Assembly: GCA_019510125.1 (NCBI GenBank)
Contig: JAEKKX010000005.1
Location: forward strand, 234,009 to 298,008
Length of the DNA stretch: 64,000 nucleotides
Direction: 5' to 3'
Origin: Lysobacterales bacterium
GTDB lineage: Bacteria; Pseudomonadota; Gammaproteobacteria; Xanthomonadales; Xanthomonadaceae
The notes below the pieces were generated by a model. That model worked only from the letters and a program-made list of their open reading frames with translations. It did not search any database and was not told the DNA's origin. A program made the translations under genes and the position numbers. The stretch's first letter is position 1. Each line of letters starts with the position of its first letter. Positions 13,520 to 17,264 of the stretch are shown here, one piece after another.

Positions 13520-14407
13520 ATGACCGACACCCCCGCCAGTCCGATCCGCAACGTCTCCGACACCGCGCTGTGGGTGGCGATCTGCCGCGCCCGGGAAAGC
13601 GAACGCCCGGACGCGATCTTCCACGACCCGTACGCACGCCGGCTCGGCGGTGCGCGCGGCGAAGCCATCCTGCGGGGCATGCCCGGCGGCACGTCCACCG
13701 CGTGGCCGATCGTCGTCCGCACCGCGGTCATGGACGAGATCGTGTCGGCATGCGTCCGCGACGGCGCGAAGACCGTGCTCAACCTCGCCGCCGGGCTCGA
13801 CGCGCGTCCGTATCGCATGGCGCTGCCCGCGGACCTGCGCTGGATCCACGTCGACATGCCGGAAATGATCGAATACTTCCGCACCGGCATGGCCGGCGAA
13901 ACGCCGCGCTGCCGGCTCGAGTTCGTCGCCGCCGACCTGCGCGACCCCGACGTGCGGCGCGCCGTCTTCGCCGAGGCGGCGACCGAAGCGCCGGTGCTGG
14001 TCATCACCGAGGGCCTGCTGATCTACCTCAACGAGGACGACGTCGCCCCGCTCGCGCGCGACCTGCGCGAGATCGCGCGCGCGCGCTGGTGGCTGAGCGA
14101 TCTGGCGTCGCCGACGCTGCTGAAGATGATGGGGCGCAAGTGGGCGCGCCGGCTCGAGGCCGGCAACTCCCCGTTCCGGTTCGCGCCCGCCGCGGGCACC
14201 GCGTACTTCGAGCCGTTCGGCTGGCGCGAAATCGAATGGCGCTCGAGCTGGACCGAATCGTTCCGGCTGGGACGCACGATGCGCTTCGGCCGCCTCATGA
14301 ACCTCCTCGGCAAGCTGCGCTCGAAACAGAAGCAGGCCGAATCGCTGCGCATCTCCGGCATCATGCTGCTCGGCCCGACCGCCGCCCCTACCCACGAAAC
14401 CCCATGA
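13520..14407 (+). CDS. SAM-dependent methyltransferase, leucine carboxyl methyltransferase-like family
   Basis: A 295-residue class I methyltransferase. The N-terminal RARESERPDAIFHDPYARRL and the SAM-binding segment TVLNLAAGLDARPYRMALP mark the family of bacterial proteins related to PPM1/LCMT O-methyltransferases, some acting in natural-product or lipid pathways. ITEGLLIYLNEDDV is the usual motif after the acidic SAM-binding strand. The C-terminus (about 255-295) is basic. The substrate cannot be read from the sequence. It has an AGGAG at 13506-13510 and overlaps the LOG gene by 4 bp (ATGA). Confidence 0.82.
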   Translation: MTDTPASPIRNVSDTALWVAICRARESERPDAIFHDPYARRLGGARGEAILRGMPGGTSTAWPIVVRTAVMDEIVSACVRDGAKTVLNLAAGLDARPYRMALPADLRWIHVDMPEMIEYFRTGMAGETPRCRLEFVAADLRDPDVRRAVFAEAATEAPVLVITEGLLIYLNEDDVAPLARDLREIARARWWLSDLASPTLLKMMGRKWARRLEAGNSPFRFAPAAGTAYFEPFGWREIEWRSSWTESFRLGRTMRFGRLMNLLGKLRSKQKQAESLRISGIMLLGPTAAPTHETP

Positions 14408-14997
14408 AATCCATCTGCGTCTACTGCGGTTCCAACTCCGGCAGCAAGCCGGCCTACGCCGAGCGCGCCAGGGCGCTGGGCACGCGCATCGCCGGCGAAG
14501 GGCTGCAACTGGTCTACGGCGGCGGCAACGTCGGCCTGATGGGCATCGTCGCCGACGCCGTGCTGGCGGCCGGCGGCGAGGTCGTCGGCGTCATCCCGGA
14601 ACAGCTCGTGCAGTGGGAAGTCGCGCACAAGGGCGTGACCCGGCTGGAGATCGTCGCCAACATGCACGAGCGCAAGGCGCGCATGTTCGACCTCGCCGAC
14701 GCCTTCGTCGCCCTGCCCGGCGGCTTCGGCACGCTCGACGAGATGTTCGAGATGCTGACCTGGCGCCAGCTCGGCCTCGGCCGCAAGCCCTGCGCCTTCC
14801 TCGACGTGGACGGCTTCTACGCGCCGCTGATCGGCATGATCGACCGCATGGTCGAGGAGCGCTTCCTGCATGCGGAACAGCGCCACGACCTGTGGCACGG
14901 CGAGGACATCGCCGCCCTGTTCGACTGGATGCGCGACTACGTCCCCGCCGAAGCCGACAAGTGGCTGGACGAAAAGCGGCGGCGCGAACTGCGCTGA
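14404..14997 (+). CDS. LOG-family nucleotide phosphoribohydrolase
   Basis: A 197-residue Rossmann protein with both family motifs: GGGNVGLMG near residue 40 and PGGFGTLDE near residue 103. Families with these motifs release the base from cytokinin riboside monophosphates or cleave AMP-type nucleotides to base and ribose 5-phosphate. In bacteria the true substrate is often AMP-like rather than a hormone. The start overlaps the methyltransferase stop as ATGA. The order membrane protein, methyltransferase, LOG protein suggests a three-gene operon. The stop is followed by the palindrome island. Confidence 0.9.
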   Translation: MKSICVYCGSNSGSKPAYAERARALGTRIAGEGLQLVYGGGNVGLMGIVADAVLAAGGEVVGVIPEQLVQWEVAHKGVTRLEIVANMHERKARMFDLADAFVALPGGFGTLDEMFEMLTWRQLGLGRKPCAFLDVDGFYAPLIGMIDRMVEERFLHAEQRHDLWHGEDIAALFDWMRDYVPAEADKWLDEKRRRELR

Positions 14998-15041
14998 GCC
15001 CGCATCCGGCAAGCGCCACACCACGCGCCGTGGCGTTTGCC

Positions 15042-15067
15042 GTCATCCTCGCGAATGCGAGGACCCA
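15042..15067 (+). repeat. Palindromic repeat, copy 1
   Basis: A 26-bp unit: GTCATCCTCGC, four variable-centre bases (GAAT), then GCGAGGACCCA. The inner CCTCGC/GCGAGG arms form a hairpin. It lies 45 bp after the LOG gene stop. Confidence 0.85.
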
Positions 15068-15135
15068 ACTCTCCGCCCCGACCGCCCCTCCGAAGACCCG
15101 CGCACATCACACCCAACGCGAGGCCCGCTTTTGCC

Positions 15136-15161
15136 GTCATCCTCGCGAATGCGAGGACCCA
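15136..15161 (+). repeat. Palindromic repeat, copy 2
   Basis: Same 26-bp unit, identical to copy 1, in the same orientation and 94 bp further on. Both copies are preceded by a similar TTTGCC or TTGCC lead-in. Together they occupy the 196-bp gap between the LOG gene and the GIY-YIG gene, which holds no other feature. Confidence 0.85.
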
Positions 15162-15193
15162 CCCCGCACCCCCGCCGACCCTCCAAAACCAGC

Positions 15194-15499
15194 TCACCCC
15201 ACCCTCTGCCATTTCAGCACCCCCGGATACAGGTCGACCCAATCCGGATTCCTCTCCTCGATCAGCGCGATCTTCCACGCCCGCAACCAGTGCTTCAGCG
15301 CCTTCTCGCGCATGATGGCCTGCGCCATCGTCTCGTGCGACTCGAACCAGACCAGCCGTCGTACGCCGTAGCGCGCCGTGAATCCGGCGCACATTCCCTG
15401 TCGATGCTGCCAGACCCGCCCGATCAGATTGGACGTGACGCCGATGTAGAGCGTGCCGTTGCGGCGGCTCGCGAGCAGGTAGACACAGGGTGATTTCAT
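15194..15499 (-). CDS. Small GIY-YIG nuclease-family protein within the palindrome island
   Basis: A 101-residue single-domain GIY-YIG protein (UPF0213/YhbQ-like size). The core reads CVYLLASRRNGTLYIGVTSN, where VYL and YIG are the paired strands. An Arg follows in LIGRVWQH, and a Glu in MREKALKHW is at the expected metal-binding position. The C-terminus is PDWVDLYPGVLKWQ. The start at 15499 is the ATG directly before the motif. All copies of the 26-bp palindrome found in the window lie within about 700 bp of it, and its 5' part is duplicated at 15829-15963. Function is unproven; the context suggests action on the palindromes or their hairpins. Confidence 0.85.
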   Translation of the reverse strand: MKSPCVYLLASRRNGTLYIGVTSNLIGRVWQHRQGMCAGFTARYGVRRLVWFESHETMAQAIMREKALKHWLRAWKIALIEERNPDWVDLYPGVLKWQRVG

Positions 15500-15726
15500 G
15501 GCGGCATCGTCGCTGATCGCCGCAAGTCTGGATGTAGGGAAATGCCGCGGTTTGTTCCTTGGTGGGTGCGGCGTCGGTGAGGTGGGTCCTCGCTTGCGCG
15601 AGGATGACGGGGTTGGGGTGGCGCTGGCGCGATCTGGAAGGTGGGTCCTCGCTTGCGCGAGGATGACGGGTTGCGTTGGGTGCAAGCGCGATCTGGGAGG
15701 TGGGTCCTCGCATGCGCGAGGATGAC
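15365..15726. repeat. Segmental duplication, unit A
   Basis: This ~360-bp block contains the 5' 135 bp of the GIY-YIG gene, about 80 bp of leader and three palindromes. It recurs as unit B at about 15829-16191, offset 464 bp. The gene part differs at only a few positions, the 50 bp just upstream of the gene are identical, and the following 30 bp diverge before the palindrome arrays align again. Confidence 0.8.
15583..15726 (-). repeat. Palindromic repeat array, copies 3-5
   Basis: Three inverted-orientation copies at 15583-15608, 15642-15667 and 15701-15726, exactly 59 bp apart. The spacers between them are related rather than unique (both carry a GCGCGATCTGG segment), so this is a tandem array of a 59-bp unit made of a palindrome plus a conserved spacer. 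Confidence 0.85.
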
Positions 15727-15797
15727 GGGGTTGTGGGACTTGGCGTTGTAAGCGGACCCGCGCGCCATCGCGCGCAATGCGAGCACCGCTTATTGCC

Positions 15798-15823
15798 GTC
15801 ATCCTCGCGCAAGCGAGGACCCA
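15798..15823 (+). repeat. Palindromic repeat, copy 6
   Basis: Plus-orientation copy with centre GCAA. It abuts the broken end of the second GIY-YIG copy, so the junction of the duplication lies at a palindrome. Confidence 0.85.
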
Positions 15824-15963
15824 AGCACGCCATAGCGCGCCGTGAATCCGGCGCACACTCCCTGCTCGTGCTGCCAGACCCGCCCGATCAGATTGGACGT
15901 GACGCCGATGTAGAGCGTGCCGTTGCGGCGGCTCGCGAGCAGGTAGACACAGGGCGATTTCAT
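15799..15963 (-). pseudogene. Truncated second copy of the GIY-YIG gene
   Basis: The first 45 codons match the intact gene at 15499 with few changes, keeping VYL, YIG and the Arg. The copy then breaks at 15829, and the frame runs into palindrome copy 6 (GVLGSSLARG), where TGA at 15799-15801 ends it after 54 codons. The half holding the catalytic Glu is missing, so a nuclease is not expected, though a small peptide could be made. Confidence 0.8.
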
Positions 15964-16046
15964 GGCGGCATCGTCGCTGATCGCCGCAAGTCTGGATGTA
16001 GGGAAATGCCGCGGCGGAATGCTCGGACGGTGCGGTGTCGGGGAGG

Positions 16047-16191
16047 CGGGTCCTCGCTTTCGCGAGGATGACGGGGTTGGGGTGAGCGCTAGCGCGATCT
16101 GGAAGGTGGGTCCTCGCTTGCGCGAGGATGACGGGTTGCGTTGGGTGCAAGCGCGATCTGGAAGGTGGGTCCTCGCTTTCGCGAGGATGAC
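16047..16191 (-). repeat. Palindromic repeat array, copies 7-9
   Basis: Copies at 16047-16072 (first base C instead of T), 16107-16132 and 16166-16191, spaced 60 and 59 bp. Part of duplication unit B, which spans about 15829-16191. The centre bases vary (TTTC, TTGC, TTTC) while the stem arms are kept. The last copy is 78 bp before the next gene. Confidence 0.85.
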
Positions 16192-16268
16192 GAGGGTTGG
16201 GGGGCTGCTCGATCAGTCCCCGCGGCGACATGCGATCATGGCCGCACCGTCGTCACCGGTTCACCGAC

Positions 16269-17264
16269 ATGTCCGTTCCCGCCAGTTTCCAGGCCTTCCG
16301 CATCCACAACGACGCCCACGGCTATCGCAGCGGGCTGGAGCAGGTGTCGATCGACGACCTCGCCCCCGGCGAGATCGTGATCAGGACGGCGTATTCGTCG
16401 GTCAACTACAAGGACGCGCTCGCCGGCACCGGCGAGGGCAAGATCCTGCGCAGCTTCCCGCTGGTCGGCGGCATCGACGTCGCCGGGCACGTGGTCGCCT
16501 CCGACGCCATCGGCTTCCGCGAGGGCGATGCGGTGCTGGTCACCGGCTGCGGCCTCAGCGAGACTCGCGACGGGGGCTATTCGGAATACGCGCGCATCGA
16601 AGCGAAATGGGCGATCCCGCTGCCCGCCGGCCTGGGCCTGCGCGAGAGCATGGTCCTGGGCACCGCCGGCTTCACCGCGGCGCTGGCGCTGCTGCGGATG
16701 GAGGAGAACCGGCAGATGCCGGCGCTGGGGCCGCTGGCGGTCACCGGCGCCACCGGCGGCGTAGGCTCGCTGGCGGTGGACATCTTCAGCCGCGCCGGCT
16801 ACGAGGTCCACGCGATCAGCGGCAAGGCCGCGCAGGCCGCCTACCTGCGGTCGATCGGCGCCGCCGAGGTCCTCGGCCGCGACGTGCTGGACGCGGCGCG
16901 GCCGCTGGAGAACGCCCGCTTCGGCGGCGGCCTGGACAACGTCGGCGGGACCATGCTCGCCAGCCTGCTCGCCCGCACCCGCCCCTACGGCAACGTCGCC
17001 AGCGCCGGCCTGGCGGCCACCGCCGAGCTGCCGACGACGGTCATGCCGTTCATCATCCGCGGCGTCTCCCTGCTGGGGGTGGCCTCGGCCGGAACCGCCC
17101 GCGATCTGCGTGAACAGGTCTGGGAACGTCTGGCTTCGGACTGGAAACCGGCGCATCTGGACGCGATCTGCACCCGCGAGGTGGGCCTGGCCGAGCTGCC
17201 CGACGTCTTCGCGGGCATGCTCGCCGGCGGTTCGCTGGGGCGAACGCTGGTCCGGATCGGCTGA
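16269..17264 (+). CDS. acuI: Acryloyl-CoA reductase (NADPH), YhdH/AcuI-type quinone oxidoreductase
   Basis: A medium-chain dehydrogenase/reductase of 331 residues with the NADPH-binding segment TGATGGVGSLAVDIF near 160. The N-terminal AYSSVNYKDALAGTGEGKI and the catalytic-zinc-free layout are typical of YhdH/AcuI, which reduces acryloyl-CoA to propionyl-CoA and removes this toxic electrophile. The ATG at 16269 gives the normal N-terminus; the extra upstream codons are repeat DNA. It stands alone between the palindrome island and the response regulator gene. Confidence 0.85.
   Translation: MSVPASFQAFRIHNDAHGYRSGLEQVSIDDLAPGEIVIRTAYSSVNYKDALAGTGEGKILRSFPLVGGIDVAGHVVASDAIGFREGDAVLVTGCGLSETRDGGYSEYARIEAKWAIPLPAGLGLRESMVLGTAGFTAALALLRMEENRQMPALGPLAVTGATGGVGSLAVDIFSRAGYEVHAISGKAAQAAYLRSIGAAEVLGRDVLDAARPLENARFGGGLDNVGGTMLASLLARTRPYGNVASAGLAATAELPTTVMPFIIRGVSLLGVASAGTARDLREQVWERLASDWKPAHLDAICTREVGLAELPDVFAGMLAGGSLGRTLVRIG

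Follow-up and report, generated by a model that had tools for sequence, protein, structure and literature searches.

Repetitive extragenic palindromic (REP) sequences with a CGTC tag form a superfamily (Di Nocera et al. 2013, PMC3733652), to which dRS3 of Neisseria, RPE-4 and RPE-6 of Rickettsia and numerous families from alphaproteobacteria belong. According to that survey, CGTC REPs consist of the tag, a stem of 8–9 bp, a loop of 4–5 nt and a CCA-like tail, and they occur mainly as head-to-head dimers. The first two stem positions are 'almost invariably' complementary A and T, with exceptions allowed, and in other repeats the tag is often TGTC or CCTC. The survey reports neither a dedicated transposase for CGTC REPs nor a tyrosine transposase gene flanked by CGTC units. 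Here, a locus is described in which a gene for a GIY-YIG nuclease of 101 amino acids lies among nine CGTC-tagged palindromes. It is situated on contig JAEKKX010000005.1 of a Lysobacterales bacterium (assembly GCA_019510125.1), in a stretch of 64,000 nucleotides (positions 234,009 to 298,008), which is called the window in the following. With a probability of roughly 70%, the locus represents a minimal autonomous mobile element with inverted CGTC-REP ends, tags pointing outward and GIY-YIG as its sole gene, of which gene-less REP pairs would be non-autonomous derivatives. Genes of this kind lie between matching hairpin repeats in many unrelated bacteria as well, and the nuclease is strongly favoured as the enzyme that would spread CGTC REPs, one of the two major families of short repeats in bacteria.

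The locus and its repeat

A first-pass annotation of the window had proposed a REP-like palindrome, seen nowhere else in the window, with conserved stem arms and a variable centre. The nine palindromes around the 101-codon gene were confirmed: GTCATCCTCGCNNNNGCGAGGAC has nine exact matches at 15042–16191, three on the plus and six on the minus strand, where 0.13 are expected by chance in 64 kb, and nine were reached in none of 100 shuffles. A hairpin detector gave zero matches in the reversed sequence of the window. The repeat unit of 27 nt is composed of CGTC, ATCCTCGC, GNNN, GCGAGGAC and CCA, and folds into a 7-bp stem with a 4-nt loop. The tag is present in 9/9 copies, and the tail is CCA in 8/9 and CCG in 1/9. 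As proposed, the stem arms are kept and three centre bases vary, but the first centre base is G in all nine copies.

Within the window, no copy beyond the nine was found with up to three mismatches. The genome as a whole, however, has 57 copies with at most one mismatch, 48 of them outside the window. Including close variants, 17 places hold 66 copies (75 search matches minus nine discarded as dissimilar), with 22 head-to-head pairs at a fixed step of 49–50 nt. The palindrome is indeed of REP type, but this type had already been described as CGTC REPs. Seven of the eight stem positions are paired, the second as T–A; the first is an unpaired A.C, and for this reason the repeat would be classed as a variant of the CGTC-tagged type, outside its four families, and not as a family member. 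Other REPs beside GIY-YIG genes, for example ATTCCCGC...GCGGGAAT, satisfy the full CGTC stem description.

The protein was assigned to its superfamily by Pfam, conservation and fold. The GIY and YIG motifs as well as the arginine and glutamate are conserved, and Y8, Y19, G21, R29, H33 and E66 are retained in 98–101 of 102 aligned homologues; the conserved arginine and glutamate of GIY-YIG nucleases have functional roles. Structure prediction suggests a single folded domain, for which the closest solved sequences and folds are of the UPF0213/Slx1 type, and the predicted structure also matched the I-TevI fold. In the database records examined, the only names given to members of the family are GIY-YIG nuclease, hypothetical protein and excinuclease ABC subunit C. 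The source genome carries a second GIY-YIG gene (L017, G000:C1:39957-40253), and CGTC REPs of another variant, with the stem CCCGGC, lie no more than about 200 bp from it.

Bracketing of GIY-YIG genes by inverted repeats

In most homologues tested, the gene lies between cognate inverted repeats. Homologues were gathered by protein similarity alone. CGTC hairpins were present in 8 of the first 15 loci, mostly one per side, with differing stems and loops of 4 or 5 nt. They were also found, within about 3 kb, in 25 of the best 30 loci from a search of 299 genomes of the phylum (the locus of the window included), with 0 in the reversed-sequence control. A CGTC REP within 300 bp was detected in 44/103 loci, and the nearest REPs had the tag outward in 50 cases and inward in 19.

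Independently of any detector, the upstream flank was aligned to the reverse complement of the downstream flank, with a score of at least 35 as cut-off. This was reached by 67/99 GIY-YIG loci (56/82 closer and 11/17 distant genes), so homologues usually have an inverted pair around them and do not as a rule lie away from palindromes. The controls reached it in 0/566 positions of the same loci, 0/990 shuffles and 3.3% of 782 mismatched pairs. When open reading frames (ORFs) served as control, 36/64 GIY-YIG genes were bracketed versus 6/845 other ORFs in the same loci; the subsets gave 2/200 for small ORFs and 4/229 for ORFs with intergenic space on either side. That the gene is a chance passenger, a small dispensable gene which happened to come between REPs, is hardly credible: REPs do favour intergenic DNA (PMC3733652), but the low numbers for other ORFs, small ones included, and for same-locus positions contradict it.

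Among loci of a plasmid collection (11 of 34 records, with slightly wider flanks), 9/11 scored at least 35. These come from Neisseria gonorrhoeae, Azospirillum lipoferum 4B, Sinorhizobium (two), Novosphingobium, Sphingobium, Rhizobium, Shinella and the cyanobacterium Planktothrix (35). The gene of Neisseria gonorrhoeae (L176) is surrounded by 16 dRS3-like CGTC hairpins. Its record, NZ_CP119140.1, is filed as a plasmid and, with 2.17 Mb, looks like a mis-filed chromosome.

Repeat number and presence of the gene

The number of CGTC REPs tracks the gene. In the 299 genomes, two CGTC-REP patterns were counted, the core GIY-YIG gene was detected by a 30-sequence profile (74/299 genomes) and Y1_Tnp, the domain of RAYT-like genes (REP-associated tyrosine transposases), by Pfam. 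Of the genomes with at least five REPs, 50 had the core gene and 27 lacked it; of those with fewer than five, 24 had it and 198 lacked it (odds ratio 15.3, p 1.7e-19). The odds ratio for Y1_Tnp at the same threshold was 1.0 (p 1). The palindromes are thus not equally abundant where the gene is lacking. With one genome per genus, the median odds ratio for the core gene was 18 (p 1e-10), and when core-gene labels were shuffled within families the observed value was reached in 0/5000.

The same relation was seen in the genus, in a count of the exact repeat that covered 17 genomes. Those with the element at the locus have 57 (source genome), 40 (G308) and 14 (G306) copies; without it, there are 6 in G299 and 0 in seven other congeners, and six more distant genomes also have 0. 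The repeat is therefore present in 3/3 genomes of the genus with the element at the locus versus 1/8 without (Fisher p 0.024).

Correspondence between protein and repeat

Protein and repeat have co-evolved. Similarity between proteins was compared with similarity between repeats across the 61 loci that have a cognate pair. The two were correlated with a Mantel r of 0.447 (top of 2000 permutations 0.18), and between different host families only with 0.395 (permutation maximum 0.196). Judged from these sequences, protein relatedness predicts repeat type. In one clade (L035, L073, L077 and L078), for example, the Trp motif is replaced by KAGSRAKK, with small variations, and the repeat is CGTCATTGCGA...GAAGCAATC. 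Two GIY-YIG genes occur in the genome G244; each is bracketed by a REP family of its own, and further copies of either family are scattered through that genome.

A parallel was found for DUF559, a Vsr-like nuclease family. Among the best matches of a 150-genome search (L197-L225), 17/29 scorable DUF559 loci reached a score of at least 35, compared with 1/70 at a lower cut-off of 28 in a small same-locus control. The bracketing inverted repeats are mostly of the CCCTCTCCC...GGGAGAGGG type, also written CCCTCTCCC...GGGAGAGGGTTGGGGTGAGGG. A plasmid of Sphingomonas parapaucimobilis (L195:718-1128) has a DUF559 gene between sufB and sufC. Repeats of the CCCCTCCCC type flank this gene on either side, but the flank score of the locus was only 19. 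DUF559 and its repeat are, by all appearances, an independent case of the same design with a second nuclease family.

Sites with and without the element

Gene-bearing and gene-less units have the CGTC/GACG ends in common. In G308 and G306, a single REP-GIY-REP element (494 and 526 bp, respectively) occupies the position seen in the window, flanked by the same pair of host genes. In G308, 19 dispersed places were additionally examined. Of these, 18 carry head-to-head units whose flanks are unrelated and whose CGTC/GACG ends are sharp, apart from a deviating last base in two; the units are 75 bp long in 17 and 74 bp in one. The 19th has a different second hairpin. The 75-bp REP pair consists of a hairpin, a 21-nt spacer and the inverted hairpin, and these dispersed gene-less pairs share their ends with the gene-bearing element.

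Empty sites in relatives, which the first-pass annotation had suggested looking for, were found in three groups, but these sites are too diverged for exact junctions. In the genus, the two host genes are adjacent and the element is absent in G300 and G301. One REP unit of the source genome, between genes that are presumably prc and ada, is missing at the same place in 6/6 congeners which match both sides, and the seventh (G299) was unmatched. In Azospirillum lipoferum 4B, sufB and sufC are separated by the element, which has one REP pair to its left and one to its right, and no element is present there in A. ramasamyi, A. oryzae and strain B510 at a flank identity of 95–97%. Eight further Azospirillum among the matches listed gave a two-piece match with 89–91% identity and 61–62% query coverage. 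Of 11 Sphingobium plasmids matching both query ends, 7 have the element and 4 gave a two-piece match. In 2/3 examined element-less Sphingobium sites (L191 TomTYG74 and L192 TomTYG64), a single hybrid palindrome remains, which bears the tag at either end and is made up of the outer halves of two REPs, which is consistent with a scar left by a deletion between REP arms.

Such presence and absence at shared sites speaks against another reading, by which the gene encodes a structure-specific repair nuclease that REP-rich genomes retain to deal with hairpins, and which stands among REPs for regulation and not for mobility. The closest predicted folds, Slx1-type branched-DNA nucleases, and the very stable predicted fold of the 75-nt REP pair would suit it. 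The position of the gene inside a repeat pair with repeat-typed ends, its patchy occurrence (74/299 genomes) and the sufB/sufC insertion in one Azospirillum, absent from the relatives listed, make it improbable.

Across 29 REP units (18 of G308 and 11 of the source genome), A-runs were found upstream in 13 and T-runs downstream in 12, and the opposite in 2 and 0. As these exceed the opposite arrangement, the units lie in AT-rich, terminator-like places. The gene-less REP pairs (L239-L257 of G308; L020, L022-L024) look as if inserted in, or serving as, bidirectional terminators. The sufB-sufC junction has received three different insertions (L177, L196 and L195), namely GIY-YIG with 4-nt-loop REPs, GIY-YIG with 5-nt-loop REPs and DUF559.

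Weighing of the evidence

Several observations weigh against a mobile element driven by the GIY-YIG gene. When 40 further loci were scanned with a strict detector, only 12 had a CGTC REP no farther off than 300 bp, 4 of them on both sides. Below the bracket cut-off were 32/99 GIY-YIG loci, and Spirosoma scored 34 and Rhizobium tumorigenes 14, with no pair there. The counts in the 299 genomes include gene-adjacent copies, and the patterns were drawn up after viewing such copies. Of the 77 genomes with at least five CGTC REPs, 27 are without the core gene, for example G037 (154), G032 (85) and G287 (96, single contig), and 18 genomes, among them G287, have at least ten REPs and no core gene. In turn, 24/74 gene-bearing genomes have fewer than five REPs of the two counted types. 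G299 has its six copies without an element at the locus. No target-site duplication was visible by eye beside the dispersed units, and GIY-YIG enzymes cut DNA but are not known to join it. Finally, Y1_Tnp shows a weak within-family tendency (p 0.07).

To these points the following can be added. In the 40 further loci, REP density fell from 1.67 per kb in the 150 bp next to the gene to 0.03–0.07 past 1.2 kb, and many CGTC-negative loci among them have other repeat types in equal arrangement. Higher REP thresholds are fairer because of the gene-adjacent copies and the post hoc patterns; at least 20 REPs were present in 32 genomes with and 9 without the core gene, and fewer in 42 and 216 (odds ratio 18.3). 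Where a genome is rich in REPs but lacks the core gene, this could be due to loss, poor assembly or another enzyme. In G299, no GIY-YIG gene was found in three 10-kb regions around its copies, the rest of the eight element-less congener genomes lying outside this search.

The tendency of Y1_Tnp would fit RAYT/Y1 transposases which spread the repeats in trans, with the GIY-YIG gene as cargo, and the source genome does have two Y1_Tnp genes (G000:C32:159647-159961 and G000:C44:42194-42460). One of these is about 2.9 kb from three REP pairs and the other has no CGTC REP in 9 kb, which, together with the missing correlation between Y1_Tnp and CGTC REPs in the 299 genomes, makes this very improbable. 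None of 18 scorable Y1 loci was bracketed at a score of at least 35, but the 30 Y1 loci taken were the best matches, mostly of IS200-like length, and sampled true RAYT loci little. A CGTC-flanked tyrosine transposase gene was likewise not found by Di Nocera et al. 2013 (PMC3733652).

The main rival, though an unlikely one, is a homing-type parasite: the GIY-YIG gene would cut REPs and insert between two of them, having neither created nor spread them. It fits the brackets and the occurrence of REP-rich genomes without the core gene. GIY-YIG homing nucleases exist, the I-TevI fold was matched, and REP-targeting insertion sequences have been described (PMC1525189). REP number, however, tracks the gene across genera, and repeat and protein types co-vary, each gene of G244 having its own dispersed family. 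Because of such gene-specific repeat types, and because no exact copy of the repeat turned up in seven congeners, homing explains the data less well.

Proposed mechanism and implications

For the autonomous element preferred here, the nuclease would recognise the stem, the loop and the CGTC flank of the hairpin, be the DNA single-stranded, cruciform or at a replication fork, and nick it at or near the CGTC tag. Host repair or replication might then copy the element or its short derivatives into new sites. Internal deletion could give rise to gene-less 75-bp REP pairs, spread in trans by the same enzyme, and repeated events to local arrays as in the window. GIY-YIG enzymes are hydrolytic, and thus no covalent RAYT-like intermediate is expected. 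The structure of the element and its association with the repeats are observed; cutting of the hairpin by the nuclease, the resulting mobility of REPs and the copying route are what we infer. Of the earlier proposal that palindromes are dispersed by a non-RAYT enzyme, the association gained support (67/99 loci, odds ratio 15.3), having withstood both refuting checks named with the proposal, and the mobility stays conjectural.

The balance tips slightly towards a large unrecognised class of elements with one small nuclease gene between inverted palindromes. In this class, GIY-YIG would drive CGTC REPs and also GTCATTGCGAG..., TGTCATTC... and CCTGAG...CGAAGG repeats, DUF559 would independently drive CCCTCTCCC...GGGTGAGGG, and much of the short dispersed repeat content would be non-autonomous offspring. 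CGTC REPs, described as lacking a dedicated transposase, would obtain a named and testable enzyme. If the gene is that enzyme, hairpin-dispersal systems evolved more than once via unrelated nucleases, a widespread gene family would be explained, and very small hairpin-directed nucleases would become available for study.

Features of the locus

Positions 15363–15620 and 15827–16084 form a local duplication with 92% identity, and REPs recur at steps of 59–60 nt; for both reasons, several of the nine REPs arose by local duplication. The second copy of the duplication carries the truncated GIY-YIG gene, an internally deleted derivative. All features are listed in Table 1.

Table 1. Annotated features around the GIY-YIG gene (window coordinates)
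Feature	Position	Strand	Evidence
Left host gene, LOG/lysine-decarboxylase-like family, marks insertion site	14404..14997	+	PF03641 144 bits; synteny in congeners
CGTC REP 1 (CGTC tag, stem, CCA tail)	15041..15067	+	Hairpin detection
Inner element REP-GIY-REP, 475 bp, tags outward	15135..15609	.	
CGTC REP 2, left end of inner element	15135..15161	+	Hairpin detection
GIY-YIG nuclease gene, 101 aa	15194..15499	-	PF01541 51.3 bits; ATG at 15499
CGTC REP 3, right end of inner element	15583..15609	-	Hairpin detection
CGTC REP 4, 59-nt local tandem step	15642..15668	-	Hairpin detection, self-comparison
CGTC REP 5, 59-nt local tandem step	15701..15727	-	Hairpin detection, self-comparison
CGTC REP 6, 3 nt from truncated GIY-YIG copy	15797..15823	+	Hairpin detection
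Truncated GIY-YIG copy, first ~45 codons, between REP 6 and REP 7	15827..15963	-	Pfam 28.6 bits
CGTC REP 7, tail CCG	16047..16073	-	Hairpin detection
CGTC REP 8	16107..16133	-	Hairpin detection
CGTC REP 9	16166..16192	-	Hairpin detection
Right host gene, zinc-type alcohol dehydrogenase/quinone oxidoreductase family	16269..17264	+	PF08240, PF00107

Comparison with known systems

A literature link of GIY-YIG or DUF559 genes with REPs was not found in the accessible parts of the sources searched, including PMC6006769 and PMC9465073, with preprints and most subscription papers outside the search. The arrangement resembles REPtrons, in which RAYT (TnpA-REP) is associated with REPINs (REP doublets forming hairpins), in that a gene is flanked by hairpins and gene-less hairpin pairs are dispersed. 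REPtrons use an HUH-tyrosine (Y1) enzyme, which cleaves the hairpin as a single strand beside the tag, and a GTAG tag, whereas the present system has GIY-YIG, a CGTC tag and no association with Y1_Tnp in 299 genomes.

The arrangement also recalls miniature inverted-repeat transposable elements (MITEs) with their autonomous parents, since the ends of the gene-bearing copy recur in the short ones and an internally deleted copy is present in the window. The usual parent enzyme of MITEs is a DDE transposase; here, there is none, the ends are hairpins and no target duplication was seen by eye. GIY-YIG homing endonucleases of the I-TevI type share the fold and have a nuclease gene tied to its own spread. 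They are encoded in introns or inteins or have a separate DNA-binding domain, whereas here there is no intron and no extra DNA-binding domain, the ends are palindromic and the gene lies between two host genes. UPF0213/Slx1 nucleases are closest to the 101-aa protein in solved sequence and fold; a mobile context is not described for them in the sources examined, whereas distant GIY-YIG genes were bracketed here in 11/17 cases.

The repeat itself is closest to the CGTC REP superfamily (PMC3733652), with which it shares the tag, the 4-nt loop (elsewhere 5), the CCA tail and head-to-head dimers. That source reports no dedicated enzyme, whereas most of the homologous loci tested here have a GIY-YIG gene enclosed by the repeats.
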